This document shows, piece by piece, positions 19,925 through 52,412 of a stretch of DNA of 64,000 bases (positions are counted from its first letter, which is position 1; each line of letters opens with the position of its first letter). The DNA comes from Arthrinium phaeospermum (lineage: Eukaryota > Ascomycota > Sordariomycetes > Amphisphaeriales > Apiosporaceae), in the NCBI GenBank assembly GCA_006503535.1, contig QYRS01000011.1, positions 2,418,001 to 2,482,000 of the forward strand, given 5' to 3'. Under the pieces are notes generated by a model. That model was not told where the DNA came from and searched no databases. It was given only the letters and a program-made list of their open reading frames with translations. Position numbers and translations under genes: made by a program.

Positions 19925-21439
19925 ATGTGGTCGAGAGCTCTGCTGCGCTCCGCGCGCTCGCCCGCTTTCACAAGGACAGCCCTGCGGACACCGATAGCTT
20001 CCAGAGTCACAGTCCCGTCGACCTCCTTATGGATGCGAGGCCTGGCAGACCAGAAGCCCTCTTCATCACAACCGAAAGAGCCTCAGTCCAGCTCGCAACC
20101 GCCAAAGCCCGAAGATGCGCCCTCGTCAGAACCCACAGAAACGACCCCTCAAAAACCTTTCAATCTTCCCGACCTGACCCAAGGTATCCCCTCCACCCTC
20201 GAGTTCGAAAAGGATGGCGCCACTAGCAAATCCGCGCTGCAAGCGCTGGAGGAGGAGGAAGCAGCTACCGGAAGCAGCGGCCGCGGCAAGGGCGAGCTAC
20301 CGGCTTCCGCATACGTCTCCTCCACTGATCGGAGGCGCAACCAAATGGCCAACTACATGTACGGTGCTGCCCTGGCCCTGGCCATCGCCAGTGTCGCATA
20401 CCTCGGTCGGGATTGGGACGAGGAGGAGGCCCCGACGCACCAGGATATCCCCAACGGCTGGTATCCCGGCCTGTGGTGGAAGCGTTTCCGCGCGCGTACC
20501 GGCGACACCCTGAGCTACTACAACGAGCCCACGTTCGAGAAGCTGCTGCCGGACCCCGACCCCATGTTCGAGCGCCCCTACACCCTGTGCATCAGTCTGG
20601 AGGATATGCTGGTCCACAGCGAGTGGACGCGCGAGCACGGCTGGAGGATCGCCAAGCGACCCGGCGCCGACTACTTCCTGCACTACCTGAGCCAGTACTA
20701 CGAGCTGGTCCTCTTCACCACCGTTCCCTTCGCTATGGGCGAGCCTCTGGTGCGCAAGATGGACCCCTTCCGCTTCATCGTCTGGCCCCTGTTCCGGGAG
20801 GCGACCAAGTACGAGAACGGCGAGATCGTCAAGGATCTCTCCTACCTCAACCGTGACCTGTCCAAGGTCGTCATCGTCGACACCAATGCCAGGCACGTCC
20901 GCAACCAGCCCGAGAACGCCATTGTCCTCCCCAAGTGGACCGGCGACCCCAAGGATAAGGAGCTTGTGTCGCTGATCCCCTTCCTCGAGTACGTCCACAC
21001 CATGCAGTACAAGGATGTCCGTGAGGTCCTCAAGTCCTTCGACGGCAAGCACATCCCCACCGAGTTCCAGCGCCGCGAGGCCATCGCCCGCGCCAAGTTC
21101 GAGGAGGAGTTCAACGCGCGCAAGCCCAAGCACAAGTCTGGCATGGCCTCTCTCGGCTCTATGCTCGGCCTGAAGCCCAGCAACATGACTATGATGGTGG
21201 TCCCCGAAGGCGAGGTCAACCCGAGTGAGGCGTTCGCCCAGGGCAAGATGCTCCAGGATATCGCCCGCGAGCGTGGCCAGCGCAACTACGAGATGATGGA
21301 GGAGGAGATCCGTAAGAACGGAAAGAAGTGGCTCGAGGAGGAGCAGCAGATGCAGGAGAAGGCTCAGGCCGAGGCCATGGCCAGCATGAAGGGCTCCCTG
21401 ACCGGCTGGTTCATCCCTAGTGGAGGCGAGAAGAAATAA
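19925..21439 (+). CDS. TIM50: Tim50, presequence receptor of the TIM23 translocase
   Basis: Single-exon protein of 504 residues. The N-terminus (MWSRALLRSARSPAFTRTAL) is an Arg/Ser-rich amphipathic presequence. A Pro/Ser/Glu-rich stretch follows, then one transmembrane helix at about 142-160 (YMYGAALALAIASVAYL), then the intermembrane-space domain with the FCP1/HAD-like fold. Tim50 marks are clear: TLCISLEDMLVHSEW, KRPGADYFLHYLSQYYELVLFTT, and SYLNRDLSKVVIVDTNARHVRNQPENAI. The HAD nucleophile position reads SLED rather than DLDE, as in yeast Tim50, so no phosphatase activity is expected. The C-terminus is a long charged helix (IARERGQRNYEMMEEEIRKN). Tim50 receives presequence proteins from the TOM complex and passes them to Tim23. 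Confidence 0.95.
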   Translation: MWSRALLRSARSPAFTRTALRTPIASRVTVPSTSLWMRGLADQKPSSSQPKEPQSSSQPPKPEDAPSSEPTETTPQKPFNLPDLTQGIPSTLEFEKDGATSKSALQALEEEEAATGSSGRGKGELPASAYVSSTDRRRNQMANYMYGAALALAIASVAYLGRDWDEEEAPTHQDIPNGWYPGLWWKRFRARTGDTLSYYNEPTFEKLLPDPDPMFERPYTLCISLEDMLVHSEWTREHGWRIAKRPGADYFLHYLSQYYELVLFTTVPFAMGEPLVRKMDPFRFIVWPLFREATKYENGEIVKDLSYLNRDLSKVVIVDTNARHVRNQPENAIVLPKWTGDPKDKELVSLIPFLEYVHTMQYKDVREVLKSFDGKHIPTEFQRREAIARAKFEEEFNARKPKHKSGMASLGSMLGLKPSNMTMMVVPEGEVNPSEAFAQGKMLQDIARERGQRNYEMMEEEIRKNGKKWLEEEQQMQEKAQAEAMASMKGSLTGWFIPSGGEKK

Positions 21440-22607
21440 ACCAAAAAGGACCTGTCGACGAGTAGCCACGGTGGTGGTGGCGGTGCCGGCTTGAGAATAT
21501 CTCTGTACTAATATGAAACGAAACGATACATTACCTACCTACGTTTTCTTCGGTTGAAGATAGGGGGTTCGGCGCAAACCGGGGTGGTGCTACGATTCGC
21601 TAGACTGGGCCTGAGTGTGTGTGCGACCTGGGCGAGCAGGCCAGGAAACGGCCGCAATACAACAGCGCCTCTGTTTTGATCTCTCTACTCCCTTGTTGGT
21701 TGATGGGCAAAGCGGGCACAACATGTATGCATAACGATATAGGATGAAACCCCTTTCCCATGGTCGCGACGATCATGGAATGATGTTGTACCTAGTGTTC
21801 TAGTTTAGTGGTGGTGGTGGGCGGTCTAGTTCTGATGTCGCACAAGACAGTCAGAGCATGGGTGGGCATAATATTATGTATATTACCTGTAAATCTTCAC
21901 GAACGAAAAAAAACAAAATGTCTAATATGGGCCTCGTTATCATTTGGAAACTGCAGTATCACGTTTATCATACTCGTGGAAGACGACTTAGAAGCTTGTT
22001 GGTCATGATAGATCAATTGATCGGGATTCAAACCAATGTGCGAGCTCCTTGTTGTCCTGCAAAAAAGAAATCCCCGCCATTTCTTGGCCAACTACGTACA
22101 GTACAGCCAACGGTGGCTCTCTGGGAAGGGGAAGTAGGTATGCATCAATCAATGCATTGAATGTTGGTGACCTCAGGCTGGCAAGCTGGTTGGTTCCCAT
22201 ACAAGTTAGCCGCGTGCGCCGAGACCCAGACCACACACATGGGTTTGGCAGCTAAGAATGTGTTTCAACTGAAAATGATCGGGCCGTGTGGGGTTGGCGG
22301 TGATGGTGATTCAGTCTTTCCCGAACCAGCCACTGCATAGAATCAATTGGGAGCTGACGGTCAGGTAGTCGAATCGTTGCTCACTCCCAAAGGGATAACC
22401 GTTGATTTCGCTTCCATGCAGTCGCAAAGGTTGGCCATTGCTTGATTACTCGAATAGTTCCTCTGTGTATTAGTAGAACAATGTTAGTGTTATAACAGTT
22501 GGATAAATACACGCATTCTATGCGGTGATGCCATCCCTGCGCAGCAACAGGTGAGTGCTTACACCAGCCCCTGGTTGTAACAAGTCTCCCGCTTGGACTC
22601 CAGCTCA
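21440..22607. other. Intergenic region between TIM50 and the small-protein cluster
   Basis: About 1.17 kb with no coding frame recognised. It marks the change from dense core genes to the sparse accessory cluster. Confidence 0.5.
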
Positions 22608-22868
22608 TCAGTTCACGCGGCGGCGGCGAACCGGTCGACCTTCGGCCGGGAATGTAGCTTTGGGGACAATGGGGTCCTCGTCACTGACCCACATGTCGCC
22701 GGTCTGGCGGTATGGGTGGTGTTGTGAAGGCCAAGACGTGTCGCGGTTGCTTGAGGCAGACGGGCGTTGTTTGGTGTAAGTGAGGTAGGCAATCCAGAGT
22801 GATGCAACGGCAACGAAGAAGGAAGGGATGCCGAGGGCTAGGGCCACGACAACTTCAGATGAGAGCAT
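22608..22868 (-). CDS. Small single-pass membrane protein, cluster copy 1
   Basis: An 86-residue member of an unrecognised paralogous family with copies through 34.5 kb. Residues 4-27 form one hydrophobic helix (EVVVALALGIPSFFVAVASL, then WIAYLTYT). A polar middle rich in Ser, Pro, Trp and His follows, then the tail PVRRRRVN. The Glu before the helix and the Arg-rich tail suggest, by the positive-inside rule, that the C-terminus faces the cytosol. It is supported as a gene by conservation of the reading frame among copies that differ freely in the middle. A TATTAAA-like box lies about 115 bp upstream and a GTAAGC donor-like site 46 nt after the stop. Function unknown. Confidence 0.7.
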   Translation of the reverse strand: MLSSEVVVALALGIPSFFVAVASLWIAYLTYTKQRPSASSNRDTSWPSQHHPYRQTGDMWVSDEDPIVPKATFPAEGRPVRRRRVN

Positions 22869-23951
22869 GATTGGATTGGAAGACTAAGCAGTCATACACT
22901 GTCAACCACTCTAGACAATGAAATCTAGAAGAAAAGGGATCGTGGGTTTCACATTCTCACGATCGCTGCTGCGACAGACCTTTAATAGCAGGATACAGCA
23001 CTTGGGCTGGGCGGGCGGTGGAACTTGTCGTGAGGGACCGACGAATCATTTGCCATGGTGAAAGCTCCAACGAATTATCGGCCATTGTAAGAGCCATCAT
23101 GAAGAACTGACGAATTATCGGCCATCGTGAGAGCCATCACGAAGAACCGACGAATTATCGGCTATTGTCAAGTGTGGGAGGTTTTTGTGCTTACGCTGCG
23201 TAGCCACACCAGTCATCATAGCTCGGCTGTTGAAGGTTATATTGTTCAGTGCAGTCGGAGTTGCCCTTTTTAATGTCAAAGATGCTGCTAACTGACCCTG
23301 CTTGGGTAAATTTACATTGTACCCTTTCGCTTGTGTCGAAAGGGATTTCCCTACGAAGGGTGGCGTTTTGATGTTTCAAGGGATAACCTGCCAATCACGT
23401 AGAATAATGAGAGCCTCGAGGGTGCGTGGTGGGGCTCTGCCACTCAATGTTTGGGCTCTTCCGCTTACGACCGCCGAGAGTGCCTCATATATAGGTGCCA
23501 GTAGCTAGGGAAAACGACAATGAAAAAGAATATGTGGGAGACAACTGAATTGAAGCTGATCTTAAACACTCTGGCCTGAACCTGTACATTAATGCAAGCC
23601 CATTGGCAAACACTCATACGGATATCTGAAGCCCTAAGCAAGCACGATGCTTCAACCACTTGGATCTTGATCCCTCTGACCAAGACTCAGCTGCAGTATT
23701 GCCAGCTGTTTGAAGAACGATGTCACGAGACGAATCTTTAAGCTGCGAAGGAATGAAAGTTAGGATTCGCAGCAGTAGACGGGCGTGTGTGTGCAATCGT
23801 AGCAGCTCTTCGGGAAGGGGTAAGTACATACCCGAAAGTCGCCCCTTCGTCCCACCAATTGATCGGAGCTTGTTCATTTAAGCTTAAGCGCAGAGATCTC
23901 CCGTCAAGAGTGCCAGTTCTGGCAAATAATCACTTACAAGTTCCACCAATC
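22869..23951. other. Spacer between cluster copies 1 and 2
   Basis: Contains the minisatellite at 23036-23168 and otherwise no recognisable gene. Confidence 0.5.
23036..23168. repeat. Imperfect minisatellite, about 40-bp unit, roughly three copies
   Basis: The core CGAATTATCGGCCAT plus GAGCCATCA and GAAGAACYGA recurs three times in a row, with a decayed first copy (CGAATCATTTGCCATGGTGA). It lies in the 5' region of copy 1. Confidence 0.8.
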
Positions 23952-24239
23952 TCAACCGCCAACTCGGCGCCGGAGAGAACGCCCCCCTGCCGGGAACGCT
24001 GCCAGGGGGAGAATGGGTTCGTCGCAACAAATGGAGTATCTACTAGCCCATGTGCTGCGGCCGCTGTTCGAGGACATTAGCGTGTAGTTTTGTAATTGCC
24101 AGAATGGGTCGGTATGGTTTGCCGGTGCAATTGGAGACTGCCGCGAATAGGTGAGGTAGGTGATCCAGAGCGCTGCTATGGCAACAAACAGTGATGGGAT
24201 GCCGAGAGCAAGGGCAACGATCACCTCGGGAAAAGGCAT
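23952..24239 (-). CDS. Small single-pass membrane protein, cluster copy 2
   Basis: A 95-residue paralogue of copy 1. The head PEVIVALALGIPSLFVAIAA plus LWITYLTYSRQ matches the family closely. The middle is lengthened and carries two Cys (SICCDEP). The tail is AAFPAGGRSLRRRVGG. A GTAAGT donor-like site starts 15 nt after the stop. An (AT)n tract lies 136-155 bp upstream of the ATG and can serve as a TATA element. Function unknown. Confidence 0.7.
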   Translation of the reverse strand: MPFPEVIVALALGIPSLFVAIAALWITYLTYSRQSPIAPANHTDPFWQLQNYTLMSSNSGRSTWASRYSICCDEPILPLAAFPAGGRSLRRRVGG

Positions 24240-26092
24240 TTGGAAAACAGTAGGGAAGGACGGAAGAGGGAAAAGGATCTATATGTTTTCTATTGATACA
24301 CTGGAAACAACTAGGTTAGGGAAATGTCGAGTTGGAGGACATGAAGAAGACACAGGATTCACCCATCGATAAGAATATATATATATATATATATGCCATC
24401 GAGATTTCAAGTATTACACTGGTTTAGTCTTGGTCGTGATAGATATTAGATGTTATATGTTCCCTCTTCGTCATGCGGAAAACGAGCTGCATTGCCACAG
24501 AGTCTATGGTGACATGCAGTTTCGCAGGACGCCACAAGTCTCATAAAACTGTTACCGCTTTCTGGAACTAGGTGTAGTACGGCGGTCAAGCACGGACGGC
24601 GAAAGAAACGATTGGTCAGGGTAATAAACAGGGCAATATTTGGCGTCTGGCGGGGCTTCGTAGCAGGTCGCCGGCTGTCCAGGCTGGCGACCCGACTGAC
24701 CAGCCCAACCAGATTGGTGCGAGGAACCTAAGCAGCATCCCGTCCCAGCCCAAGGCGCCCTTACCGCTCCCCACCGCGGGCGTCTCCGAATAGACGGTAT
24801 GCGGGGAGGCGGATATACCGGCTGAGCAGACTTCAGCCCTATCTGGACTGCCTGTTGATGTCGACGACTATCATTTTCTTCCAATTTGGACTCGGTTACC
24901 CTCGGTCATCAACTGTCTGGAGGTAAGAGGCAACCGCGATGAAGATTGGTGTCGCAGCAAGGGTTTTGCCCAATGCTGCGAACACTGCATCTGCCGCCAA
25001 TGTCTCCTTGACACCGACACAAATGCTTGAGCGTACGCATTCTTCATGGCTGTCCCCTTTCAGTAAAATCATTGTAATGTCAATTCCTCTCTCTGGCTAA
25101 GTATATGCAGTCGTACAAGTCCGATGAATCAACTCCCGGGAGACTGCTCGTGTGCCATCCAATACATGCATCCTCGATACTTGATGTTGCGCCTACCCAT
25201 TGCAATTAAGCCCCGCCAAAAGCCCATCTCAAGCTGGAAGCAAGCAATCCTGAGCACAATTACCTAAGGGTTGATCCCTCAAATCAAAACTAATCCGCAG
25301 CACTGGCAGCTGTCGTGACTGGCCCTCACATGGGTTGTCTGTCGAAGCCGAGAGGTATGTCGATGTAAGTACAAGGTTCGCAGTATTAGTGATTGCCCAG
25401 ATCAAATCCCCGGATACGTACCGAGTGCTACCACCCCACTAACGAATTGGAGCTTCTTCACCTGTCCGTAAACGCCGGTCTCCCGTGCCGTTGTACCACA
25501 GAGATAGATAGTGGGAGGCAATCTTTAATGATCAATACTTGGATTCCTTGGCATTGGTCATTTAACGGCGTGGAGTCCTAGTCTCCCTGTGAAGACCATG
25601 AAGAAAAGATACGAGCTCGTGGTAGTGGTTCGCGAGGGCAAGTGTAAATGAGTAAGTCAAGCCAGAGACTTGAGCAACCCAGTCGCAGCCAAACACTAAC
25701 ATGCAGCTTAGTGCTATGCTCATCAATTTCACGGAGGTCTTTGGTGACTGGCGAAGCAGAACAGAGAGCTATATAGGCCACAACTTTCGGCTAATTCATG
25801 AACCTAGTAAAGCAACTAAGTAATGAACAAATACACCTCTAGATATCGCTGCCCACTTTCATCATGACAGAGTGTCATTCCAAACCGCTTCAAAAGCCCT
25901 TCGACTAAAGCCAAGCTGCATAGTTGGGAGCTACCAGGGGGCTTCCTCCTTGAAAGGTCTGTCTATGGGATTGGTAAGTGTGGGAACAATGAATATGAGT
26001 GTCGGCTAGCTGCAGATGGACGGGAACCTACCTACCCCACGGAACTAGTTGGTGATCCAAAGTTCCACAAAACCCCGAACAGGCATATCCAT
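24240..26092. other. Spacer between cluster copies 2 and 3
   Basis: The longest gap inside the array, 1.85 kb. A minus-strand frame at 24552-24884 contains a Pro/Arg-rich stretch (IPSIRRRPRWG) but no family head, so I do not call it a copy. No other gene recognised. Confidence 0.45.
24375..24394 (-). promoter_or_regulatory. (AT)n tract, possible TATA element of copy 2
   Basis: About ten AT dinucleotides located 136-155 bp upstream of the copy 2 ATG, in the position where other copies have TATA boxes. It is also a microsatellite, so its length may vary between strains. Confidence 0.5.
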
Positions 26093-26353
26093 TCACACGC
26101 GACGCCGGGGGAATGGCCCGGAGAATGCGGCTTGGGGGGCATTGACAAAATTATTCCCATTATGAAAAGAAGTGCTGGAATCGAAAGGCATATGATACTG
26201 CACGGTAGGCCATGATGGTACACGGCTTGCTGGTGGATGGGAGGATGATCGCGAGTGGGTGTAAGTGAGGTAGGTAATCCAGAGCGAAATGGCGGCCACT
26301 AAGAGTGACGGGACGCCGAGAACTAGAGCAACGACGACTTCTTCTGATACCAT
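26093..26353 (-). CDS. Small single-pass membrane protein, cluster copy 3
   Basis: An 86-residue paralogue. The head SEEVVVALVLGVPSLLVAAI plus SLWITYLTYTHSR is nearly identical to copy 4. The middle (HPPASRVPSWP, then Asn/Phe-rich) differs. The tail is APQAAFSGPFPRRRV. A TATATAAT box lies 71-80 bp upstream, and a GTAGGT donor-like site about 58 nt after the stop. Function unknown. Confidence 0.72.
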   Translation of the reverse strand: MVSEEVVVALVLGVPSLLVAAISLWITYLTYTHSRSSSHPPASRVPSWPTVQYHMPFDSSTSFHNGNNFVNAPQAAFSGPFPRRRV

Positions 26354-27201
26354 GATATAAGTAAATGAATCGAGGTGGGAATACTCTTGTGTAAGGTTCG
26401 CGTATAATTTAATGTTCAGGGCGTATTATATAATTTGAACATATAGCACTATGAAAGAGTACATTCGATCCTGGAAAATATATTCTTTATAGACGAGGTT
26501 CGATCTACTTTTCAATCCGTTAAATAGACAAGTGAGGCATAGGTGACGATTGTGGCGGAGTAAAAATATAGCCATGCTATCAAAATGATAAGTACAAGTA
26601 ACATATTCAGTGACAGGTCACACTCAGGATGTAGCTAATGGGGGTAACAATAGCACTGAATACACCATGGACAGGCGCTGCCAGCTGCTGGATATGTGCA
26701 GGCTGCTCACTTCCAAGGTTCCAAAGCACGACAGCATCTCAATTTCCTATATCTTTAGAGATAAGAATGGAATGATTGTGCATTGTATAGAACAGGTGCT
26801 TTAGACTTATCAGCTCATGAACCGTCACCATTGACCTCATCCAGACCCAAGATATCCCCTTGCCAATGATGTCCAATATGTAAAACCAACCCCATTCCAA
26901 GGTTTCCAGCCGCACCCGTTGCTATTACCACCTTTAGCCAGCCGTTCTTGAAGCTATCCAATAGAGCAAAAGCTCCAATGAAACTGGCTGGGCACAGCTG
27001 ATGTATATTCCTCATGTCTTTCTGGGTGATCCTAGGCGTAAAGACGTGCGTGTAAGTGCATGCATGCATGTTTGATCGATCGGCTATCCATACATGGCAG
27101 TGGGTGGGGGAGGGTCAGTACATGTACATGCATGTAATTCACGTACCTATTGGATGGAACATTGATTCTAAGCTCCGACCTACCGACGAGCTAGGGCTTT
27201 T
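26354..27201. other. Spacer between cluster copies 3 and 4
   Basis: AT-richer than the flanks near 26400-26600. No gene recognised. Confidence 0.5.
26424..26433 (-). promoter_or_regulatory. TATA box of copy 3
   Basis: TATATAAT on the minus strand, 71-80 bp upstream of the copy 3 ATG. Confidence 0.5.
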
Positions 27202-27444
27202 CTATATCCACATGCGGCGCCGGACCGATCCTCCAGAGGAAGCAGCACGTGGGGTAGACGTTTCATTGCCCGCATTGAACGTTAAGGAGAACTGCGCTGG
27301 CCACGCTGGGGTATGGCTTTCCGTTAAAGGAGTGGGCGGGCGACTGTGTGTATAAGTGAGGAACGCAATCCAAAGAGAAATCGCCGCCACGAGAAGGGAT
27401 GGGATACCAAGGGCAAGGGCAACGACGACCTCTTCCGATACCAT
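27202..27444 (-). CDS. Small single-pass membrane protein, cluster copy 4
   Basis: An 80-residue paralogue, the shortest intact copy. The head SEEVVVALALGIPSLLVAAI plus SLWIAFLTYTHSR shares its first two blocks with copy 3, suggesting these two are the most recent duplicates. The middle is Pro/Thr-rich (PPTPLTESHTPAWP) and the tail is SVRRRMWI. A donor-like GTACGT lies 56 nt after the stop. A weak CTATAG element lies about 70 bp upstream. Function unknown. Confidence 0.72.
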   Translation of the reverse strand: MVSEEVVVALALGIPSLLVAAISLWIAFLTYTHSRPPTPLTESHTPAWPAQFSLTFNAGNETSTPRAASSGGSVRRRMWI

Positions 27445-28984
27445 AGCGAATAGGAAAAGAAAGAAACTCAGAGTGGGTACAAGTTGAGGCTACTGCTGAG
27501 TCTGTGCGCTGATTCTATAGTAGTGCCAGTGCTTATCGTAGAAGGTGGAGTGACCCAAAACGTGGGGATGGAAGGATTTATTGAACGGAAGCGGGTGGTA
27601 AAGCCCTCGTAATTGGGGCCATGGGTCGCGAACCAGCTTGAGCCTCCAAGGTGAGGTACTTAGGCAGCCGTGAGGCTAGAAGTACCGCTCCGAATATCTT
27701 TGGTTTTGAAAGTTAGTGTATCCCAAAGGCTCCAGAGGGTCTTTATGATTGGTGCCGAAAACCATATGTGCATTAGAGATGGTGTTCTTGAGGAGACTTC
27801 GCCTGGCGCATCCGCATATTAAAAAGGTATGATTCGTGACGCTTGTTTTAGCGTAGATCTGGTTTCCCAATCGAAGTCTTTCTTTTGTCTATACAATCTG
27901 AACAATAGAGAGCATGTATATAAGAATCTCATGGCAGTCGGTTCTGTACGCAATAGCATTATGCTACCTACGGTCATGACGGGGACGAACTACCGTACGT
28001 CTGTTCAACTTCCTTTGACCTTGACGAAGAGAATGTCTATAACATCCACTACCAAGTTCACAATTAGCAGGTAAAAGCGCGCTACGTATCTAGCTGCTTG
28101 AACTGCGACGGCTCGAGCATATCAATAGCTAGCTAACAATTAATCACTTCAATTGCTGAGACTGCATTCTTGCGAATCATGCAGTCTACGGCTTTCGGAG
28201 AGTGACTTCGAAGAACTAAAATGCGCGTCTAGACCTAGCAGGGAGTACGAGACAGCCACTTCTTCTGGGCGGTCAAAGCTTGTCAGCAATCGGGCGGTGC
28301 CTTTTGGCGCAGGACTACTCTGTAGAAGCACATCCATTCGACGTGGTTATGGACCGGAACAACAACAGCCTGCTCGAGGTGGCAGGAGTCTGCGGCGTTT
28401 GGGTTTGGGCAATCCGACTACCAATTGCAGATAGGTCAGAATTTCCCCTCCCTTGATTCGAGAGAAAATACGATGTAGAAGACCAAGGCATATACATATA
28501 CCTTACATGCGTGAAGCCTGCTGTGGTCTTGTTTTGACCAGACGCACGGAGAAAACAGTAGAGTACGATTCGGTATCGCGATAGGAAGAGGTGCTTTTTT
28601 AGTTGTTACTAATAAACTAATCAGGTTTAGAAAAAATGGCACATGAGGGCCTGATATGAGAAATACATGCCTACCAGGAGTCAATACTTTTGTCAATCAT
28701 ATACTTGAATGTAATGGGACCGTACGGTTGAACTGGTAAGAGGCCGATGGCCACTATGAACCTCCTCTCCCGTCATCAAAATGCCGCCGTGAAATAGGGC
28801 TTCCATATACAGTCAATCAGGGGCTTTTTGGGGAAGCTCTGCAAACAGGCCCGGCTTGAAGTGTTGTCGGCCCAGTCTTTGTTCTCGTCCTGCGAAAAGT
28901 CTGCCTGTAGGACGGTGTGAGTGTATTGCATGAACCATCAATTTGTGGGCACTTACTCCGGCATTCCGCTGCACTAAGTTGCGC
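27445..28984. other. Spacer between cluster copies 4 and 5
   Basis: 1.5 kb without a recognisable gene. A plus-strand frame at 28153-28434 lacks the family head and is probably chance. Confidence 0.45.
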
Positions 28985-29305
28985 CTAGTCCTGGACTGCA
29001 CGGCGCCGCATGGACGACCCCGGAGAGACCAGCTGCGGGACGCCGAGGCTATCGTTGCTCGCCGCAAACGCCGGAACTCTACTGTCCAAGGGCCGTGCGC
29101 CAGCTGATGGGTGCTGAAAGTGGTAATGGTGGTGTGCATGCCATGGCGGGACGGCAGGCGGTGCAGGCGGAGGAGTGTGCGGCTCTTGAGGGCGGGTGTA
29201 AGCGAGGTAGGCGATCCCAAGCCCTGCAACAGCGACCAACAATGAAGGAACCCCAAGGACCAGCGTAACGATAACTTCAGTTGAAATTCTGTCAGAGTCG
29301 GACAT
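28985..29305 (-). CDS. Small single-pass membrane protein, cluster copy 5
   Basis: A 106-residue paralogue, the longest. An extra N-terminal MSDSDR precedes the head ISTEVIVTLVLGVPSLLVAV, followed by AGLGIAYLAYTRPQ. The middle has a Pro run (PHTPPPAPPAVPPW) and a His cluster (HAHHHYHFQH). The tail is GSSMRRRAVQD. The start is the only ATG in frame. TATATAAT lies 108-115 bp upstream. A GTAAGT lies 29 nt after the stop, with a plausible acceptor (CCTACAG) about 50 nt further on, consistent with a 3' UTR intron. Function unknown. Confidence 0.7.
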   Translation of the reverse strand: MSDSDRISTEVIVTLVLGVPSLLVAVAGLGIAYLAYTRPQEPHTPPPAPPAVPPWHAHHHYHFQHPSAGARPLDSRVPAFAASNDSLGVPQLVSPGSSMRRRAVQD

Positions 29306-30162
29306 GTTTAGGAGACTGATAAGTTGCAACTATATGCCAATGTTGATTTTTCATATTACATGGTAGTGAGATCGATTGGAATTCAAGATTGCATCTAAAA
29401 GGATGTCGATGGATTATATACAGCCTGGAGTAGCTGTAGGTTAGGGCAAAGAGCGACTGAGATAGATGTACATTTGGTTGCCCCGATGGCCCGTGCGGGA
29501 GGGTTGCTGTAAACGCTGAGGAGCGAGCGCATGCCTTATCAACGGTTGGCGCATCGCTCTGAGCAGCGCTTACCTGCGATGGGCGAGGAAGCTCAGAGCC
29601 GCCAGTGCCTGGGTATGAGTAGGTTTCTCCATTGGTCCCGTATTGGTGGCTGAGCCTTGCGTACTAGTTGCGACACATGCATCGCCGCCTATCTGCAAGC
29701 AGCACAGCTGGATTCTTCGTATCTACATCACGGAACGTTTCAGACCTTGGACCTATGTGTGTTGTGTATCCCCCTTAACCTGGCATGGGGTTGTAGGTAG
29801 TCTTAAGCCTATCTTCCTATGTGCCAGCGAAGACGTGAATACAATGTTGGATGGACCACCCAGAGCTCGGTCCAGCGCGAATCGATTAAACATAGCCGCC
29901 AGAGCCTCCAGCGACAATGATTGCGATTGTGAAAGCCACAGATCAGCCCCCCCAGCATATCCGAATCCCTGCGTAGTGTGGCTTGTCAGATCTACAGGAT
30001 TATATGCCCTTCTCATGCCCCGATCATTAACAATCTAGTGGTACTATGTTGGGAAGATTAGCTGGCATGCGTGCATCTGCCCCTCGGAACATTTTGGACA
30101 CTCACCTCCAATGCCCCGACTCTCTGATGTGTCCGCCAGTAATCGTAACTAGCTATAATACT
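29306..30162. other. Spacer between cluster copies 5 and 6
   Basis: No gene recognised. Contains the TATA element of copy 5. Confidence 0.5.
29413..29420 (-). promoter_or_regulatory. TATA box of copy 5
   Basis: TATATAAT on the minus strand, 108-115 bp upstream of the copy 5 ATG. Confidence 0.5.
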
Positions 30163-30447
30163 TTATCCGTTGACACGGCGCCGAAGCGACTTCGGAAATA
30201 TGGGCTGCGGAATGATCAGGCCATCGTCTGTGACTGAAGACAGCCTGTTGCTATTTGCCCATGTTTCAGAAGCTAGGAAGGATGAGGGATAGTATGCAGG
30301 CCATAAAGGAACTCTACTCGTAGGAAAAGAAGACTGTGATTCCCGAGAGAAGGCATAGGTAAGGTAGGCGATCCAGAGTGCAGCCGCGGCGACTAGTAGC
30401 GACGGTAAACCTATGGCCAGCGCGACAATGACTTCAGTCGTGAGCAT
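30163..30447 (-). CDS. Small single-pass membrane protein, cluster copy 6
   Basis: A 94-residue paralogue. The head TTEVIVALAIGLPSLLVAAA plus ALWIAYLTYAFSRE matches the family consensus. The middle is SRVPLWPAYYPSS with a Trp/Asn stretch, then TDDGLIIPQPIFPKSLRRRVNG. An in-frame ATG further up (30534) would add 29 residues, but all paralogues start at the equivalent of 30447, so I chose that. A TATAAAA box lies 122-128 bp upstream, and a GTGAGT donor-like site 58 nt after the stop. Function unknown. Confidence 0.7.
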   Translation of the reverse strand: MLTTEVIVALAIGLPSLLVAAAALWIAYLTYAFSRESQSSFPTSRVPLWPAYYPSSFLASETWANSNRLSSVTDDGLIIPQPIFPKSLRRRVNG

Positions 30448-32199
30448 GGTCAGATTGGGGGTATGGGATTTGGAAGACTGGTAGAGCGAGAAAATAGCAA
30501 TTATCGATATTTGGCGCGTAAAGACGATATGCATCTTCTCGAATCTAGGATCTGCCTGGTCATCGTCGTTTTATATTTCAGGTCCGGGAAAGCGTGATTT
30601 CATCATTGCGGGAGTGATAGAGATCGCTCCAAGGGGCGTTAATGTGGTGGAGAAGGGCAGACGCAGGCAGGGATGTACAGTATGAGTCGGCAGCCGTTGA
30701 AACGCGGTTTCCGGTGTCTTAGAGGACTCGCATAACAACATACATGGGGGAGTTTACCATAAAGTACCTTCGTACCCTGCGTAGTGGTCGAACCAGGATT
30801 GGAGAATGGCAGGGACCACCCTTGTACTGGTGCGAAAGGAGAAAAGGCTCTCGAGATAAAAAGTCAATCTGGGTAGTGCATGGCAAGGTCAAGTTCTGGC
30901 CGAGTGAGTACTTGTATCCTTTACACAGCCCAAACATCCAAGGAGATGTACTCTCTGAGGGTCCAGATATCATCCTGAACTGATAGATTGATTGCGACAG
31001 AATGGCCCTTTAGACGTTACTAACTCTGCACTTGAACTAATAATTCACCAAATTCTTTCTACGTACAGATGGTACTGCTGGTCTGTTCATGGTGCTTGCG
31101 CGACACTGACTTGCTACTGAGAGCATTCAGTTTTGAGGGCATCGAGGACATAACCAAAGGTCGCGAAAAGCCTTGTCCACGCCCCAAGCCAGATGACGCA
31201 GCTGCGGGGGCTGCGTGGACGCAATTATTGCGACGTCCCGTTGGGCGGTCACAACACCAGATGGTAACAATTTTTGCCAACTTTTACTGTGAGCATGCAG
31301 CTTTGGAACCGGCCGTGAAATCACCCGATTGGTAAATGCGAACGACGTTACCTCCCCAAGGATCGTCGCCCGTAAGTAAGTGGTGAAGACGGGTTGCAGT
31401 CGGCAGCCAGCTCGTGTGTTCGGCAAAGCTGTTCATGGTTACTCGTAGAAAATTGACCGCTGTTGCAGGTCGCCTCACAGATTAGAGAAGGGGCAGCTGA
31501 GGTCTGGGCCAACATATAAGCCTCTATGCCTGCTGGGGCTCGCCGAGCCACCCGAGAACGGCTTGCTTATTACCAGTTTTCTACTTAGCACGAAGATTTA
31601 TTGGCTGCACCATCACGCCTGGCCACCTAGACTGCTTGGCGTATATATTATCTTCCGGGTTGCAGGATGATGTTACCATTCTTCAATTTGAGCCGTGGTC
31701 CGTGTTGGTGAACAAGTGGTCAGTTGTCACAGCGGTTGTGTTTGGTCTAGCTTGTCAGACTTGACGTTTTCAACCTCAAGTCAAAGATTGGAGACGACAA
31801 CTCCTCTGGGACGATCTTGGCGAAATAATAACCCGTCAACTGTGTGCTCGGTGAAGCTATGAGAAATCTCTCTTATCCATCACTTGTAGATATTTTGTGT
31901 ATTTGGTAGATCCGCCCAATTGATTTTGGGGTTCACTGAGTAAGTACATGCTCATCGTGTTCAGCCTGCGAATCAGGACTTCCCAGCTCCCAGATGTATA
32001 ATGAATGGTATTCATCAAGTGTCTCACTAGGTATTCCGTCAAAGCTGTCTCTTCCTCGGACAATTTGCTCTGTCAAAGGGGTTAGCAAGCCAGACTTGAC
32101 AGTCGGTCGTGTAAGTGCTTTAGTGGGGTAAACCTACCCCACGCCCCTACTTAGTTAAGCTTAATCTCTAATTGCCCGCTAAAACACAGTTTCATCCGC
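30448..32199. other. Spacer between cluster copies 6 and 7
   Basis: 1.75 kb. Short frames on both strands (30744-30983 plus, 31059-31280 minus) show no relation to known proteins. No gene is called. Confidence 0.45.
30569..30575 (-). promoter_or_regulatory. TATA box of copy 6
   Basis: TATAAAA on the minus strand, about 125 bp upstream of the copy 6 ATG. Confidence 0.5.
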
Positions 32200-32445
32200 T
32201 CAATCGGCGCCGGATCGACGCGGAGAATGCGGTCCAGGTGTATGATGTGTCCAGGTATATGATGTCGTCAACAATGGGTACTGGGATGACCACTGTGGTG
32301 AGATGTTGGCTGTAGATGGAGAAGAGAACGGTTCTCGAACTCGGGACTGGGTGTAAGTGAGATACGCGACCCAGAGGGCCACAGCAGCAACCAACAGTGA
32401 GGGAATGCCGAGGGCCAGGGCCACAACCACTTCCGTAGAGAGCAT
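32200..32445 (-). CDS. Small single-pass membrane protein, cluster copy 7, tail frame-shifted
   Basis: An 81-residue paralogue. The head STEVVVALALGIPSLLVAAV plus ALWVAYLTYTQSR is fully conserved. The C-terminus reads SPRRSGAD instead of the family RRRVxG. A 17-bp tandem duplication at 32232-32265 lies just before it, and 17 is not a multiple of three. The conserved CGGCGCCGA box is still present but is read in another frame. The protein may still work if only the head matters. A TATATATT box lies 142-151 bp upstream, and a GTAGGT site 63 nt after the stop. Confidence 0.65.
   Translation of the reverse strand: MLSTEVVVALALGIPSLLVAAVALWVAYLTYTQSRVREPFSSPSTANISPQWSSQYPLLTTSYTWTHHTPGPHSPRRSGAD
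32232..32265. repeat. 17-bp tandem duplication in copy 7
   Basis: Two adjacent units GTCCAGGTGTATGATGT and GTCCAGGTATATGATGT with one mismatch, inside the 3' coding part of copy 7. The length shifts the frame of the tail. Confidence 0.92.
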
Positions 32446-32586
32446 TATATAAAGTTGGTCAGAGGGAATAGAAAGCAGTACTGAGGAGTTTAGCTAGGGC
32501 GGTTGGAAACGATGTGTGATAAAACGATTTCTGTCAAGTTGAAGGGAAGGAATCATGGGCATAACATGTTACGAGGAATGGAGGGT

Positions 32587-32596
32587 AAAATATATA
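32587..32596 (-). promoter_or_regulatory. TATA box of copy 7
   Basis: TATATATT on the minus strand, 142-151 bp upstream of the copy 7 ATG. Confidence 0.5.
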
Positions 32597-32648
32597 ATGC
32601 ACCTGTCCCGGAGAATGGGAGCGCAGCGGTTTGGGTCTTTAGCAAGGG

Positions 32649-32748
32649 GATCCCAGCACAAGGTCAAAACAGGGATACTTGTAAGGACCGCCATTTGAGA
32701 TCCCAGCACAAGGTCAAAACAGGGATACTTGTAAGGACCACCATTTGA
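32649..32748. repeat. 50-bp tandem repeat, two copies
   Basis: The unit starting GATCCCAGCACAAGGTCA is present twice head to tail at 32649-32698 and 32699-32748 with a single G/A difference, indicating a recent duplication upstream of copy 7. Confidence 0.93.
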
Positions 32749-33149
32749 GTATGGCGCAAGTATTTCTGATTGGACAGAAAGCTACCATGACTGCATGGTG
32801 GTCTGTATAATCATATGGGTCACTGTATTCTCATACATAAGCTCTGACTATGGCGTCGGATTTTACGGTAAAGTACAATTGGTTCCCTATCTTATTTCAT
32901 CTGCCTGTTATATGTTATATTTATCCAACTCTATAATTATAATACTTCATTAATGGCAATAGCAATCTCGAAGCTGTGTATGTGGCACTATAGAAACATA
33001 GGGGTCTTCGCTTTACAAGTCCAGGCCGAGCAAACCATGGTAAAGCATTTCATTCATGGGTTAACTATAGTGCTATTGAAAGTAGATAAGCTGTTCGTGT
33101 AAGTGTTATAGCGATGTATATAAATTTGCCTTAGAAACAGGATGCATAA

Positions 33150-33320
33150 CGAATCACCCCGACGGATCCTCCGAGCGGCCTGAGGCGCAGCACGACCACC
33201 GTCGGTCGAAAAGCCACTGCTGACCCAGATGGGTGTTGGACCGGCGAGGTAGGTAATCCATAGTACAATGCCCGCAACAAGCAGTAATGGTATACGGAGA
33301 GCCAAGCGCGAGAAAGGCTT
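33150..33320 (-). pseudogene. Decayed cluster copy 8
   Basis: The family head is recognisable as LALRIPLLLVAGIVLWITYL, but no in-frame ATG precedes it: the upstream frame meets TGA just before TTTYKPFSR. The middle is short (GPTPIWVSSGFSTDGG) and the tail is reduced to QAARRIRRGD with no stop at the family position. The GCGCCTCAGGCC-type tail and the spacing match other copies. Too damaged to encode the family protein. Confidence 0.75.
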
Positions 33321-34287
33321 GTAGGTGGTAGTTCAAGAAACAGTATACAGTAGAAGTGCATTCAATGAAGACACTACCTACGGACGAAAAGGCAATGTGA
33401 AGCCGTTAAGGGATTAAGTTGTATAGCTATGGTGACTTCTAAGTCAGGTCAGTTTTCTGGACGCAAGGTGCGTACAAGGACAGTGGGGGAGGAGATGACA
33501 TCGTGCATAGGCGCAAGTACGTCGATTGCAAGCATGTGGAATGCAGCAGGATGGATGTAGGATGGATGTAGGTCCAGAGAGGTGTGATCAATAGGGGAGA
33601 TCAGTGGGCAATTGGGCTCCAAAGCCAAAAAGGCTAGCAAATGCACGGCGCAGAATCCTACATGGGGCGCTGCAGTAGTTGATACAGTACATAAGCACCG
33701 CACCAGCAGCAGCAGTAGACTGTTTGGGCCAATGACAGGCCGCGTTCGCTTGACCCGGGCGAGCAATATGCACAATTTTGCTCGGGTTTTGTGCCACCCC
33801 AAAATCCATCGCTAGCAACGTGCTTTATCGACTGCATAGAGGTTGCGGAGTGGTCTACAAGGTCCAAAATGGCTCTAGCGTCCAGCCTTCCAGTGAAAGG
33901 CCTCGAAGACCTGCGAAACCTATAATGGTTGGCTTTGATTCACTTTATGTTGTAACCAGTATCTCCTTGGCTCTGTGTTCTCCGTATGCCTCCCGATTGA
34001 GACAGTACCTGATCGCAACAGTGCCAACTGGTAATGGAGGTCTAATGAATACCGCTCCAATGCCATGCATGGAATACCCCCAATATAACCTGGGACGGGA
34101 CTTTCCTGATTGCATGTTTGAATGCTCTTGAGCCAGAGTTGACCTAACCTAACCTGCAATGTTGTCGAGATGTCCGGTATAAGTGCATGCACCTCTCTCT
34201 AGCGTGCTCTGCCCTGGTAGTTGGTGGGGAGCTACTCACACGCGACAACCAGGACTCTCGGTTCACACCAACATCAACTCGGGAGCT
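33321..34287. other. Spacer between cluster copies 8 and 9
   Basis: No gene recognised. A short tandem AGGATGGATGT pair lies near 33549-33571. Confidence 0.5.
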
Positions 34288-34543
34288 TCATCCGTCCACT
34301 CGGCGCCGGATCACCGCCTGGGGAACCATAAGGTCATTGTCAACCGCGAACCCACTATTTGCCCCATATACTTTCCGGCCATAGCAACGGGCACTGAGAA
34401 GTCCATTACGAGACACGGGTTGTCTGTAGGGGTTCGCGGGAGTGGGCGTAAGTAAGGTAGGCAATGCCTAATGCAGCAGCCTCAACAAGCAAAGATGGAA
34501 CCCCGAGAGCTAGGGCGACGATAACTTCGGTTGAAAGGGACAT
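34288..34543 (-). pseudogene. Cluster copy 9, frameshifted
   Basis: From the ATG at 34543 the head STEVIVALALGVPSLLVEAA plus ALGIAYLTYAHSRE is intact, though with a charged Glu inside the hydrophobic core. The frame then stops at 34406 after 45 codons. The family tail (VPQAVIRRRVDG and stop at 34288) persists in the frame one base over, so there is one surplus base between about 34410 and 34450. Overall span is 256 nt, against 255 for an open frame of family length. Either a recent pseudogene or a truncated head-only protein. Confidence 0.75.
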
Positions 34544-34670
34544 GGCTTGAGCCTGGGAGGACTTGATAGCTCGATGGCTTGAAGTTATTCGGGGGAGAGG
34601 GGGATGATATACAGGTTGGCATATTGAAAAGAGGACAATTGAAAGCCTAGATCGAATGGGAGAATGAACA

Positions 34671-34679
34671 TATATATAG
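34671..34679 (-). promoter_or_regulatory. TATA box of copy 9
   Basis: TATATATA on the minus strand, about 130 bp upstream of the copy 9 ATG. Confidence 0.5.
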
Positions 34680-34744
34680 GGCGACAATGGCTGCGGGAGT
34701 TATAGCGAATGGTTATAGGGCATTTTTCCAACGTCAGTAGGTTA

Positions 34745-34910
34745 AGTCCTGGCCGAGATGAGCATGGATGAGTGAAAAGGGATAAGTGAAAATGGGTGAG
34801 CTGGGTGAGAGAAAATGGATGAAGCAATGGATGCATGAATATGGAAGGATGACGATGGATAGATGAAGATGAAGATGAGAATGGAAATGGATGCATGAAA
34901 TGGATGGAAG
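34745..34910. repeat. Degenerate ATGGATGA-type purine-rich tract
   Basis: Irregular recurrence of GGATGA, GATGAAGATGA and GGATGCATGAA motifs over about 165 bp. It is strand-asymmetric (few C on the plus strand). Confidence 0.75.
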
Positions 34911-35881
34911 ATTTCACGGTGTCATCGGTGAGCCATCGCGAGTGCTGCTGGCCATCATCATCGGCTGTGCAGTATATGCAGCACCTTCCCTACATGGAGG
35001 TAGAGTACAGGCCAGGTAAGGATCTCGTGCACCGAAAGGTGAGATGGCCAATTAGAAAAGGGGCGAATTTGGAGGTTGCCTTGGCCCTCCTGCGACTCTG
35101 CAATTAGACCTCGATTTTGTTAGATATGTCTGCGCCTCTAACCAAGCATTTCGCGGGGCATCATACAGGGTACAAAGGGGAAAGATGCATCAACCTTCGA
35201 AAGCTCTTGGGTGCCGCTCGAGGTCTACATCATCAACCGTTAGTTGAGCTCCTTCAGGGCTACGCCACCTAGCCTAGACCAATTTGGTGGCTGTCGGCAC
35301 TACATTGGCTACCTCAAGATTGGCATAATACTGTATGTGGCTTACGGGAACTAGAACAACGTCATCACACGATGCATGGAGAGAGGGCAAATCTGACGAG
35401 AACCACCATAGTCTATTGTAAGCTAGGAAATCCTCCAAAATAGTACTCCATCATCAAATCTGGTTCAACCTCCCACTGCTGCCGGCGCGCTGACCTGGCG
35501 TACTGGTCTGCGAAATGGTGGCCCGGCTTGCAAGGGGTGGTTGTATGAACCAGACCGCTCCAACGTGAACGAACGAATGAATTGGCAAGTGCAAGCAACA
35601 ATCCCGAAACAAAACATCCCATATCCCCCGCAACGTGCAGTCTAGCCATCCGCCTCGATCAACCGCCGGTCCCAAACAACGCAGCCAGGGACCTCGGCCT
35701 GATCGACCAACCTTCCATACGCTCGCCTACTCCCTCGCAGAACCTCCAGCACCCAAGACCGAGGGCATGCAACAGCAGACTGCCACGAAAAGGGGACCGG
35801 GGCCAGCAAGTTGATGTTGTCGACACGGCTGCTGAGAGATCGCCCCCGGTTTACCCATCGGTCAAATCGGGCTTCTCGAGC

Positions 35882-37067
35882 TTACATGCGCGGCATGGTC
35901 GAGTTGCAGAACGAGCCCGGCGACGAGGTCCAGACGCACTCCCAGCACCACTCGCAGCTGGGGTCCTCGCTGCAGTTGACGTCGCTGTCAGAACACAAGG
36001 GGTCAGTCATGTCAGTCATGAGCTCTTCGTTCGTCATAGACATGATATCCAGGGAATGTGCTTGGGTATCGCACCTCAAGTGAAGATGTATGCGTGTGAG
36101 GGGGCAAGAGGCAGACGGAGAAAAGGAGTAAGGGGTTGAGAGGGAGGGAGAAAAAGAAAAGGGGAAGAACTCACTCGCCGCAGTTCTTGCACTTCGACTC
36201 CTGCTTAGCGCAGTCCGGATGCTTCTTGTACCCAAAGAAGGCCCCGAGGTCGACGTGGTGCCGCTTCGAGACGTCCTTGGACTTGGACTTGGACTGGGAC
36301 TTGTCGGACTTGCCAGACTTGTCGATGCTGCCCTCGATCATCTGGGTCTGGTTGACGTTGTTCTTGACGTTGGACTTGCCAGACTTGTCGGACTTGCCAG
36401 ACTTGTCGTTGCTGTCGTCCTCGATCATCTGGGTCTGGTTGACGCTGTTCTTGACGTTGGACTTGTCAGACTTGCCGGACTTGAAGCTCTGGTCACTGTT
36501 GCTGCCCTCGATCATCTGGGTCTGGTTGACGTTGTTCTTGATGTTGTTCTTGACGTTGGACTTGCCAGACTTGCCAGACTTGTCGTTGCTGTCGTCCCCG
36601 ACCATCTGGGTCTGGTTGAAGCTGGCCTTGACGTTGTCCTTGATGTTGGACTTGCCGGACTTGTCGTTGCTGTCCCGGACCACCACCATCTGGGTCTGAT
36701 TGACATTGGCCTTAACCCGGCTCATGCCGAGAATGCTCGGGAATCGCCCCTTGGGCTTCTGCTGCTGCTCATGCTGCTGCTGCTGCTCCTTCTTCTGCTT
36801 CTCTAGCTCCTGGGCCTGCTTCATCTGCTTCTCGGCCGAGATGGACGTGTCGTGGAAGGCAAGGTTCTGCACAAAAGGCACCTCGGACGGCTGAGACTGC
36901 TGCCCCTGCTGCCCCTGCTGGGATCGGCCCACGACGGTGTTGTTGCTCTGCTGATGCTGGGACTGCTGATGCTGGGACTGCTGATGCTGCATCTGCTGCA
37001 CGGGCGAAGCCAGCAAGGTCGCCGGGGCCGCGGCGAGCACGAGGGAGAGGACGGCTGACAGCTGCAT
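35882..37067 (-). CDS. Secreted repeat protein with eight-cysteine C-terminal tail
   Basis: Two exons, 36175-37067 and 35882-35984, with donor GTGAGT at 36174 and acceptor TGACAG; the product has 331 residues. It starts with a signal peptide (MQLSAVLSLVLAAAPATLLA). A Gln/Ser/His-rich block follows (three QHQQS units), then a charged Lys/Gln coiled segment. Next come five degenerate repeats of 21-33 residues, each with NQTQM followed by an SNDKSGKS-like stretch; every NQT is an N-glycosylation sequon. The tail holds all eight cysteines in about 45 residues (CAKQESKCKNCG, then CSEDPSCEWCWEC, and one more near the end) and is completed by exon 2. Even cysteine number and secretion suggest a disulfide-bonded domain at the cell surface or outside. 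No known family recognised; an effector, adhesin or wall-protein role is possible. The gene lies beside the small-protein cluster. Confidence 0.78.
36300..36720. repeat. Coding tandem repeat, five NQTQM units
   Basis: Five copies of a segment with GATCATCTGGGTCTGGTTGA or close variants, spaced 63-99 nt, inside the secreted repeat protein. Spacing differs by multiples of three, so the frame is kept. Confidence 0.88.
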
Positions 37068-38302
37068 GGTGAATTGGGTTGATGGTCTTGACGACGGGGC
37101 TCTCGTAGAATGAAGTGAAGGTGTAAGTAGAATTGCAAAGAGTGTTGAAAGCGACAAGAGTCTGTCTGTACTGGGCAGGCAAAAAAGTATGTGGAAGAAT
37201 GATAATCCCCAAAGATGAACGTTGAAGACAGCCAGGATCGATGCGATGACGATGTCTCTCAAAACCTCCGAGACAGATGGGGACGGGTTTGAGGTCGTTT
37301 ATATACGCCGAGCGACAGAACGACAAGAGGCCTGTCTCTCGAGTCCTCGCTTGGCCATCAAGTTCCACAGTCCACGAATTAGGCTCTCGAGTCACCGGAA
37401 CCATATGCCAGATACCAGACACAGGCGAGCGAAGGCCTAGAAGCCCAGAAGCCAGAAGCCAAAAACAGCCGAAGGTTATACAGTCACAAAGATAGATAGA
37501 TGGCCACGATGGGTAGGGTTGATTGATTTGAACTATTATTCCCAATTGGATTGGAGCTCGTCGCGCGATAGGGCTACGCTACCGACCGTTCTCCGCGGCC
37601 ATTCCACGCGCTCTTCCTCTCTCTCTCTTGTCCTTCATCGTACACACGCACTATATAGGTATCTCCCACGTTCACGATCTAGCACCATCACACAGAACGT
37701 CGCGCGTCCGGCTCAATCGGCGACACATACCTTTTTTCCAACCACGGGGTACATACCCAACTGGACAAGCGCCGTTGGGTAGGTAATTGTTGAAAGGCCT
37801 CTTTCGTGCTAGGTCGCTTTTCGCCGCGGACTAGCCCCCTCTGGTCCTTGTCATTGTGATATGGATTTGGCGACGTGACCTCGGGACTCGCTTCGTAATG
37901 GCAAATCGTGGTACAAATGCAATCAACCGGGGGATAGAAGATGGTGGCATCTGTCAGATTCGCACCTGGTGGTAGGCCAGAAATAGCTCAAAACATTCAA
38001 TCGTGGTACAAGACGCTCGTCTCTCTTTGGGTGGGTAGGTAGGTAGGTTCCGATTAGGTAACCCGAAAGCTTCATCTACGAAGCAAAGTTGTAGCAAGGG
38101 TTTTCTAAAACGCCCCTCGGTAAATTAGGGCTCTTCAAACAAGAGCGACACAAGCCAAAATGGGGCTTGGCAGGGGGGCTCTCAATTGAGCATGCTCTCC
38201 GACTTGCATCTAACAGTGGGCAAATTCCCGATTGGAGTCGGTAGCAGCAGAAACAGAGGGTGCGGGCGACTTTGGATGCCGAGACCAAAAGGTCCCTCAT
38301 CG
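37068..38302. other. Intergenic region
   Basis: 1.2 kb between the start of the secreted repeat protein and the 3' end of the Zn2Cys6 regulator. A GTAGGTAGGTAGGTA run lies near 38034-38048. No gene recognised. Confidence 0.5.
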
Positions 38303-51059: not shown

Positions 51060-52412
51060 TCAGGTATATTCATGTGGGAGAGGCAGCTCCCAGATGTTTC
51101 CATCGTTGTCTTTACCACATAGGAGTACCGTGAGTGCCTCGGTACGCTTCTTTGCAAAAGCCTGCCACGCGGCCAAAACTTCGTCCCTGGGTCTCCATTC
51201 CTGATTGCCCTGCTTTCCATTCCACGACCAAGATATGTCAACTCGGTCTGCCGTTTGTCCTGTACCCCTGGCCAAGTCAAAGTTAGGTCCTGTGCTTGAG
51301 CAAGAGCGTAGGTTCATGTCCATTAGTTCTGGCATACGCTGAGCCGCAGCCGACGCGGCATCCCAGACGCGGTCTTGCAACGGCCAAAGGCTTGAAGCGT
51401 CTGAGTCTGAGCAGGCGATTTGCATCAACTCCGCAGGCCCTGGAATTTCCAGTCTATCAAGAATACACTGATCGTAATCAAAATAAAACCACTTTAATGA
51501 TGGCCACTCAGTGATCAGATCTTGCCCAAATATCCCAATGCCAACTCCTACGTTCGGAATGAGGTACAGATATTCGAGTCCCAACGATATCTGATGGAAA
51601 TTGTGCGCCAGGTTGTTAGAAGACCTTCCATATCTGATAGTGGCATCGTCCTCGTCTTCCCTGAAAATCTCCATCTCCAGGTATCTTGTGGAATCACTGT
51701 GCCATTTTAAAAGCGTCCCGGATATGTCTACTAACTAATTAGCCACTGTAACAAATGTAGGCATAGGCCGATGCACATAGAATGAGCTTGGATTCATGAG
51801 TAAGATTCGCCAATAACGACAATTGCATCTGTTTGAAACTTGGTAACTGACGACAACGCTTACCTTCAAATTCTTCTTGACGCGTAAAGAAACTGAGTAC
51901 CTTCTTGAAAGCACCAGGGGTACTCCCTACCATATGTACAGCAATGAGAGCTGCCCCAGGGCTGTCCTGGGCTTCGATTATGAGTCGTTTTATGCAAGGG
52001 ACCTCCGGCAGGGGAGCCAGTAGTTCGGTCCTGCCAGCTGGATATTGCATGGTCTTTGTCCGTAGGGTGAAGCAAATGTTTATCCCGGGATGTTTTTCTA
52101 CGTTACCAAACGCAGCCATGATCTCCTTAATAGCCGCGAAACATTCCGTTGCGACAATATCTTCGAACGTGATACTGAGTTCCCGAATGCAATATGGTCT
52201 TTTGATTTGGTGATTATGTTACAGAGCTTTCCAAGTTTTTCCGTCGAGTCACATGTCTTGGTGATTTTTTTGAAGGACACTAGTTCAACCATGTCCTTCC
52301 ACACAACGCATACATGACGGAGCTTACGCCGCTGTTCAAGTTCAGGCAGCAGGTAGTCCAAGATCAGTAGGGTGACTTCGTTGGAGAAGGGCCATGATGG
52401 TTTCGATGCCAT
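51060..52412 (-). CDS. F-box-like protein, first tandem paralogue, apparent one-base frameshift
   Basis: Exon 1 is 51864-52412 and exon 2 is 51060-51727, with donor GTAAGC and acceptor GTAG, phase 1. The N-terminus (WPFSNEVTLLILDYL, then LRHVCVVWKDMVELVSFKKI) is an F-box-like helix pair. The rest matches the paralogue at 53.5-55.2 kb block by block: FDYDQCILDRLEIPGPAEL against LHYDQCIIDPLKLP, VWDAASAAAQRMPELMDM against VWQASAAAAQRMPRLKTM, and WRPRDEVLAAWQAFA against WRPSNKVLCAWHAIA. Exon 1 breaks frame near 52200: the frame with the start runs out after KSKDHIAF, and the conserved RELSITFEDIVATECFAAIKE is one base away. An extra base in the TTTT at 52200-52203 gives 405 residues and the correct splice phase. 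F-box proteins are adaptors of SCF ubiquitin ligases; substrate unknown. Confidence 0.72.

Follow-up and report, generated by a model that had tools for sequence, protein, structure and literature searches.

An array of small membrane-protein genes

The stretch of DNA analysed here (64,000 nucleotides of Arthrinium phaeospermum, hereafter the window) covers positions 2418001-2482000 of contig C11, in a genome of 48.45 Mb and 19 contigs. The gene content around is fungal, with Pfam matches to e.g. a NIF-type phosphatase (which we take to be TIM50), HET domains and a Zn2-Cys6 factor. Between 22608 and 34543, in a gene-poor block of low GC content, lies an array of nine copies of a short coding head, all on the minus strand. 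We show that the array is an old family of small genes, and that the hydrophobic helix encoded by the heads recurs at the C-terminal end of a HET-domain protein encoded on another contig.

Two methods confirm the same-strand copies that had been described from the sequence alone. DNA repeat detection, which makes no use of translation, returns a 112-nucleotide family of eight copies on one strand. A six-frame scan of the window with a head profile, seeded with three copies, finds all nine. Eight of these, the three seeds among them, are matched with expectation values (E) of 7e-21 to 4e-16 and the ninth, c8, with 4e-5; the next-best match in the window has an E of 3.8. An ATG stands 4 to 9 codons ahead of the conserved glutamate in eight heads, that of c8 being the exception.

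Six copies carry the head and an RRR tail in one open reading frame (ORF). These are c1 (22608..22868, 86 amino acids, RRRR tail), c2 (23952..24239, 95 amino acids, LRRRVGG tail), c3 (26093..26353, 86 amino acids, PRRRV tail), c4 (27202..27444, 80 amino acids, VRRRMWI tail), c5 (28985..29305, 106 amino acids, MRRRAVQD tail) and c6 (30163..30447, 94 amino acids, LRRRVNG tail). In c6 an additional in-frame ATG farther upstream gives a longer ORF; the homology begins at the ATG of the 94-residue frame. The 81-residue ORF of c7 (32200..32445) is open, with its RRR tail DNA (32205-32212) out of the frame of the head and a 17-bp tandem duplication (32232-32265) just ahead of that tail DNA. The ORF of c9 (34406..34543) ends early, at 45 amino acids, and its tail motif DNA (34301-34308) persists in another frame. 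Finally, c8 (33057..33332) is a relic with a degenerate head, no in-frame ATG before it and no recognisable tail. Intact copies (c1-c6) and dead or truncated ones (c8, c9) are therefore mixed, as the sequence-only reading had it; its count of seven open and two broken copies agrees if c8 and c9 are the two that are broken, and is reduced to six complete copies by the tail of c7. Two tandem repeats lie between copies, a 40-bp unit repeated 2.5 times (23070-23168) and a 50-bp unit repeated twice (32649-32749).

The heads encode a helix of about 27 residues, with the consensus E-V-x-V-x-L-x-L-G-x-P-S-L-L-V-A-x-x-x-L-W-I-A-Y-L-T-Y. An AlphaFold2 model of c1, made from an eight-row alignment, has a helix at residues 4-34 and no predicted structure in the remainder (mean predicted local distance difference test score 64, and 78-93 across the first 30 residues). 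This helix, and the finding of no further hydrophobic segment on its C-terminal side in the eight ORFs, support the single membrane pass proposed earlier. A short acidic N-terminus precedes the helix and a basic RRR closes the tail in c1-c6; the net charge is -1 or -2 on the N side of the helix and +1 to +4 on the C side in all eight copies. The basic flank of a membrane helix faces the cytosol (the positive-inside rule), which would place the N-termini outside and the C-termini inside.

The tails consist of proline, serine and threonine to 28-48% over the eight copies. The earlier description of conserved ends around a freely diverging middle is borne out for the ends and for a variable middle, with the qualification that a single tryptophan is kept in all seven long copies, 15-21 residues past the LTY or LAY that ends the helix (it is missing from the truncated c9). 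Its contexts are TSWPSQ, PFWQLQ, PSWPT, PAWPAQ, PPWHAH, PLWPAY and PQWSSQ, and the motif separates head and tail in e.g. c1 and c2. Taken together, the long copies are predicted to be single-pass membrane proteins of 80-106 amino acids, without a signal peptide and with a flexible, presumably cytosolic tail.

Purifying selection acts on the protein sequence of the head and its helix. Over 30 codons and the 28 pairs of eight copies, the mean proportion of synonymous differences (pS) is 0.65 and that of nonsynonymous differences (pN) is 0.19, values that rule out a head dN/dS (ratio of nonsynonymous to synonymous distance) near 1, an outcome that would have counted against the sequence-only reading. 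All 30 third codon positions vary, as opposed to 17 first and 8 second positions. After Jukes-Cantor correction, dN ranges from 0.13 to 0.34 and dS from 0.62 to saturation (6 of the 28 pairs are saturated). Because even the lowest pairwise dS is 0.62, with the rest reaching up to saturation, the copies separated long ago and no pair is a recent duplicate. The pattern of birth and death with diversifying selection that was suggested at first finds no support here: some copies are dead but none is young, and the array appears to be an ancient set from which members are slowly being lost. The diverged middles do not align confidently.

The frames are also more open than expected. With a DNA motif marking the tail, we read from each head to its tail in the frame of the head. 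Seven of the eight copies are open over this distance (c9 has four stops), and six of them also keep the tail in that frame. When the middles were shuffled, a mean of 1.7 copies remained open, and seven open copies were reached in 1 of 10000 shuffles. An intron within the ORF had been considered as the cause of the variable middle, and was dropped since seven of eight copies stay open up to the tail.

Promoter- and intron-like signals flank most copies. A TATA-like hexamer or heptamer occurs at -115 to -154 in seven of the eight copies, c4 having only ATAAAT at -137, while 14% of 140-nucleotide windows on the array strand contain such a signal (binomial probability 8e-6, a value that is too good, because this pattern and the relaxed intron pattern below were picked after viewing the sequences and the backgrounds include the array). 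With a strict pattern, five of eight copies have a donor-branch-acceptor signature 3′ of the stop (background 9%); once the branch-point pattern had been relaxed after inspection, all eight have one (background 14%). The predicted signatures, on the minus strand like the copies, follow the stops of c1 (22463..22562), c2 (23743..23831), c4 (27084..27146), c6 (30044..30105) and c7 (32070..32137) and, with a relaxed branch point, those of c3 (25963..26035) and c5 (28905..28956). The signature of c9 (34154..34239), also relaxed, is anchored on the tail motif and not on the early stop. An intron after the stop, i.e. in the 3′ untranslated region, is likely in most copies, on statistics that are partly post hoc. 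We conclude that the array consists of real small genes, an old tandem family in which most members have a promoter-like box to themselves. Families of this size are often passed over by genome annotation.

The tail may be constrained in a further way. Its DNA, CGGCGCCG, is identical in six of the eight copies, and forms a perfect 8-bp palindrome with a CGG-N2-CCG arrangement (e.g. at 23965-23972). The window contains 10 occurrences where 1.7 would be expected, and 6 of the 10 are in array tails. This is more conservation than the tail amino acids require, and the motif is kept in c7 and c9 despite the shift of frame. Among the 30 third positions of the head, only two, in the W and Y codon columns, are as uniform as seven of eight. 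The tail DNA may therefore hold a nucleotide-level signal too, so that a constraint on DNA or RNA may act there besides coding.

The helix at the end of a HET-domain protein

Array members were used as queries against the genome, with 9-11 first-look candidates scored in each search. Among the scored candidates, and at an E of up to 10, all four array queries found a single match beyond the array, at about 1005543-1005656 of contig C9. This is the C-terminal end of a 657-residue ORF (C9:1003692-1005665) that carries a HET domain (PF06985, E 2.7e-14, 54.2 bits). The match was found with c7 (E 0.0024), the head of c5 (0.003), c3 (0.013) and c6 (0.028); a query with c2 was cut at an E of 0.001, at which this match could not be revealed. 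Conversely, the C-terminus of the HET protein returned all eight array ORFs at E values of 3.5e-4 to 0.016, followed by a next match at 0.40.

Head profiles built solely from array copies score 33-37 bits on the HET end, and an eight-head profile scores 37.5 bits. The best score of column-permuted head profiles was 9.9 bits (385 of 400 permutations scored). Aligned with hhalign, the heads and the HET end share 53% identity over 34 columns (probability 96.7%, E 3.6e-10). Given that the permuted profiles stay far below and given the hhalign probability, the likeness, as judged by sequence comparison, exceeds what hydrophobic composition would produce. Furthermore, HET ORFs make up less than 1% of the genome (estimated from 152 matches of about 2 kb each), and it is therefore improbable that the sole outside match should land in one by chance.

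Near the C-terminus of the HET protein lie a first hydrophobic segment, at residues 600-618 of 657, and a second one, at 626-644, which is the shared helix. These segments would form a two-helix membrane hairpin, in which the shared helix would sit with its N-terminal side out and its C-terminal side in, as predicted for the array. The genome contains at least 152 HET matches; 30 of these were fetched, together with the C9 protein and 19 relatives. Among 51 loci, 40 fragments match the N-terminal half of the C9 protein and 37 stop inside the locus. Six of these 37 have a hydrophobic segment within their last 90 residues, the C9 protein being counted twice (as L009 and L050) in both the 37 and the six. 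The relatives align with the C9 protein over its HET half alone (residues 1-312). With the array and the C9 protein set aside, nothing in the fetched loci scored above 10.1 bits with the head profile, a value (E 0.05) that was reached by a frame of 36 residues in L054. The C-terminal half with its putative hairpin thus appears specific to the C9 protein, as far as the searches reach.

No credible family for the array proteins was found in Pfam, Rfam or PDB. The Pfam matches were weak (FUSC, DctQ, Metal_resist and SoxE_N, with best E values of 0.013 to 0.46 and at most two of the eight members each) and resemble the array proteins in hydrophobic helix composition only. The best PDB matches had E values of 0.44 and 0.74, a scan of positions 20000-38000 with Rfam gave no match at the gathering score, and none of 106 pattern stretches in GTDB genomes was a relative. 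The tail of c6, used as sole query in its own genome, finds only itself, and tails of this kind are therefore too diverged to be traced elsewhere. A match to the tail of c1 on contig C4 (E 0.26) was rejected as an arginine-rich frame that lacks a head and any strongly hydrophobic segment (maximum 1.02). On two viral contigs the helix finds a short match of 48%, with an E of 3e-5 relative to 29 candidate stretches. In L071, the contig that was inspected, it sits between two phage-like ORFs, and we regard it as a fortuitous likeness between hydrophobic helices.

Possible roles of the array

Lineage-specific small membrane proteins are frequent in fungi. The account to which we give the most weight, while holding it short of probable, is that the array is an ordinary family of this kind with a housekeeping or stress role (e.g. 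as a lipid or transporter micro-subunit), whose helix was captured by the HET protein or reached both from a common source. This would agree with the strong constraint on the helix, with the fact that no recent turnover is seen and one copy is a clear relic, and with a HET gene that seems unlinked. However, eight old copies with much-diverged tails are, in our judgement, more than a simple subunit needs, and the sole outside helix found is in a HET protein.

Close behind in weight, and the reading that we tentatively put forward, is that the small proteins are single-pass membrane partners of the C9 HET protein whose cytosolic tails diverge. The two would meet in one membrane via their common helix, most simply by helix-helix contact. 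The small proteins might then hold, gate, tether, restrain or report to the HET protein, with the diverging tails as the variable part. HET-domain proteins are effectors of heterokaryon incompatibility, and in fungi they typically trigger cell death once unlike strains fuse. One of them in this genome ends in the array helix; the array proteins themselves are different, being of 80-106 amino acids and having PF06985 listed for none of the eight members at an E of up to 10. To our knowledge, the triggers of most HET-domain proteins are not known, and a helix common to one of them and to clustered tiny membrane proteins names a concrete set of partners.

A comparison can be made with HET-S/NWD2-type pairs, where a short motif is common to two partner proteins. 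Here too a short module occurs both in small proteins and in a protein of a kind linked to cell death, but the module is a membrane helix and not an amyloid motif, and the genes are on separate contigs. Several points weigh against a partnership. The HET gene is on C9 and the array on C11, and just one helix-bearing HET protein was found despite at least 152 HET matches. Exon capture can spread a short helix without any common function, and had the HET gene simply captured the helix, the sequences would look no different. Finally, with 9-11 candidates scored per search, remoter carriers of the helix may exist, whether HET proteins or not.

A more specific proposal, which we consider unlikely, is that the array is a membrane-bound allorecognition or antidote set, in which every member would display a tail of its own in the cytosol and, through the common helix, restrain, or report to, a HET executioner that is itself anchored by this helix. 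The HET link is one independent, indirect clue in this direction, and hints at a role in fusion recognition or cell death. If true, the system would parallel amyloid-motif signalling in fungal cell death, with a membrane helix in place of the amyloid motif. A tandem, lineage-specific family for comparison is that of the wtf genes of fission yeast, which are likewise arrayed, encode small membrane proteins and include intact and broken copies. They differ in that wtf proteins cross the membrane several times and some of their copies are recent, whereas the array proteins have one predicted pass and are old.

Still more doubtful is the idea that the array encodes alternative subunits of one complex, each held in the endoplasmic reticulum until a partner masks a retention signal. 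The signal would be the hydrophobic-RRR end of the tail, read as an arginine-based retention motif. A hydrophobic residue directly precedes RRR in five of the six in-frame tails (c1, c2, c4, c5 and c6; c3 has proline), and the predicted topology places RRR in the cytosol. On the other hand, the motif is short, the identity of CGGCGCCG hints at a constraint on DNA or RNA instead, and c7 keeps an open ORF with RRR out of frame.

Two further readings are very improbable. Secreted or cleaved small proteins, with the head as signal peptide and the variable part exported, would have such an N-terminal hydrophobic stretch and a tail rich in proline, serine and threonine, but the N-terminus is net negative in all eight copies where a signal peptide has a basic n-region, the stretch runs on into LWIAYLTY, the predicted c1 helix spans 31 residues where a signal peptide has a short h-region, only c2 among the eight ORFs has cysteines, and the helix recurs at the extreme C-terminal end of the HET protein, a place that excludes a signal peptide. 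Equally improbable are non-functional repeats or transposon debris, which would suit c8, c9, the shifted tail of c7, the low-GC, gene-poor block and a TpA/ApT ratio of 0.83 in the array versus 0.63 and 0.59 in the flanks (perhaps from mild mutation resembling repeat-induced point mutation, RIP, or simply from the lower GC). This is opposed by the purifying selection, the open frames and the promoter- and intron-like signals above background. The TpA/ApT ratio is also lower than the value of about 0.89 commonly used as a threshold for RIP, and a second RIP index is 1.24 compared with 1.18 and 1.28 in the flanks. The one spacer that was searched (1751 bases) occurs once in the genome, and among the scored candidates heads were found only in the array and at the HET end. 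Together with the eight ATGs and seven TATA-like boxes, the single-copy spacer leaves unsupported the earlier concern that the repeats are merely pieces broken from some larger gene or from a transposon, except in so far as the head is also a module of a larger HET protein.

Other features of the window

At least 152 HET matches in 48 Mb amount to a large incompatibility-type repertoire. One HET-domain gene, at 13582-15294 (HET match at 14767-15294, minus strand), is some 7 kb away from the array and has a probable intron, seen by eye, near 15545-15626; the head profile gives no match to it. It is separated from the array by the gene for the NIF-type phosphatase and by another that is DUF7730-like.

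On the other side of the array, a 298-residue ORF (36171-37067, minus strand) begins with what looks by eye like a signal peptide and has no Pfam match. It contains four tandem repeats of 29-30 residues around NVNQTQMIEGS and KSGKS, and a cysteine-rich end that may continue past an intron. Farther along, at 51060-55167 on the minus strand, two diverged DUF6546-like ORFs (below the cut-off) and an F-box-like ORF stand in a row, and are perhaps pieces of duplicated F-box genes.

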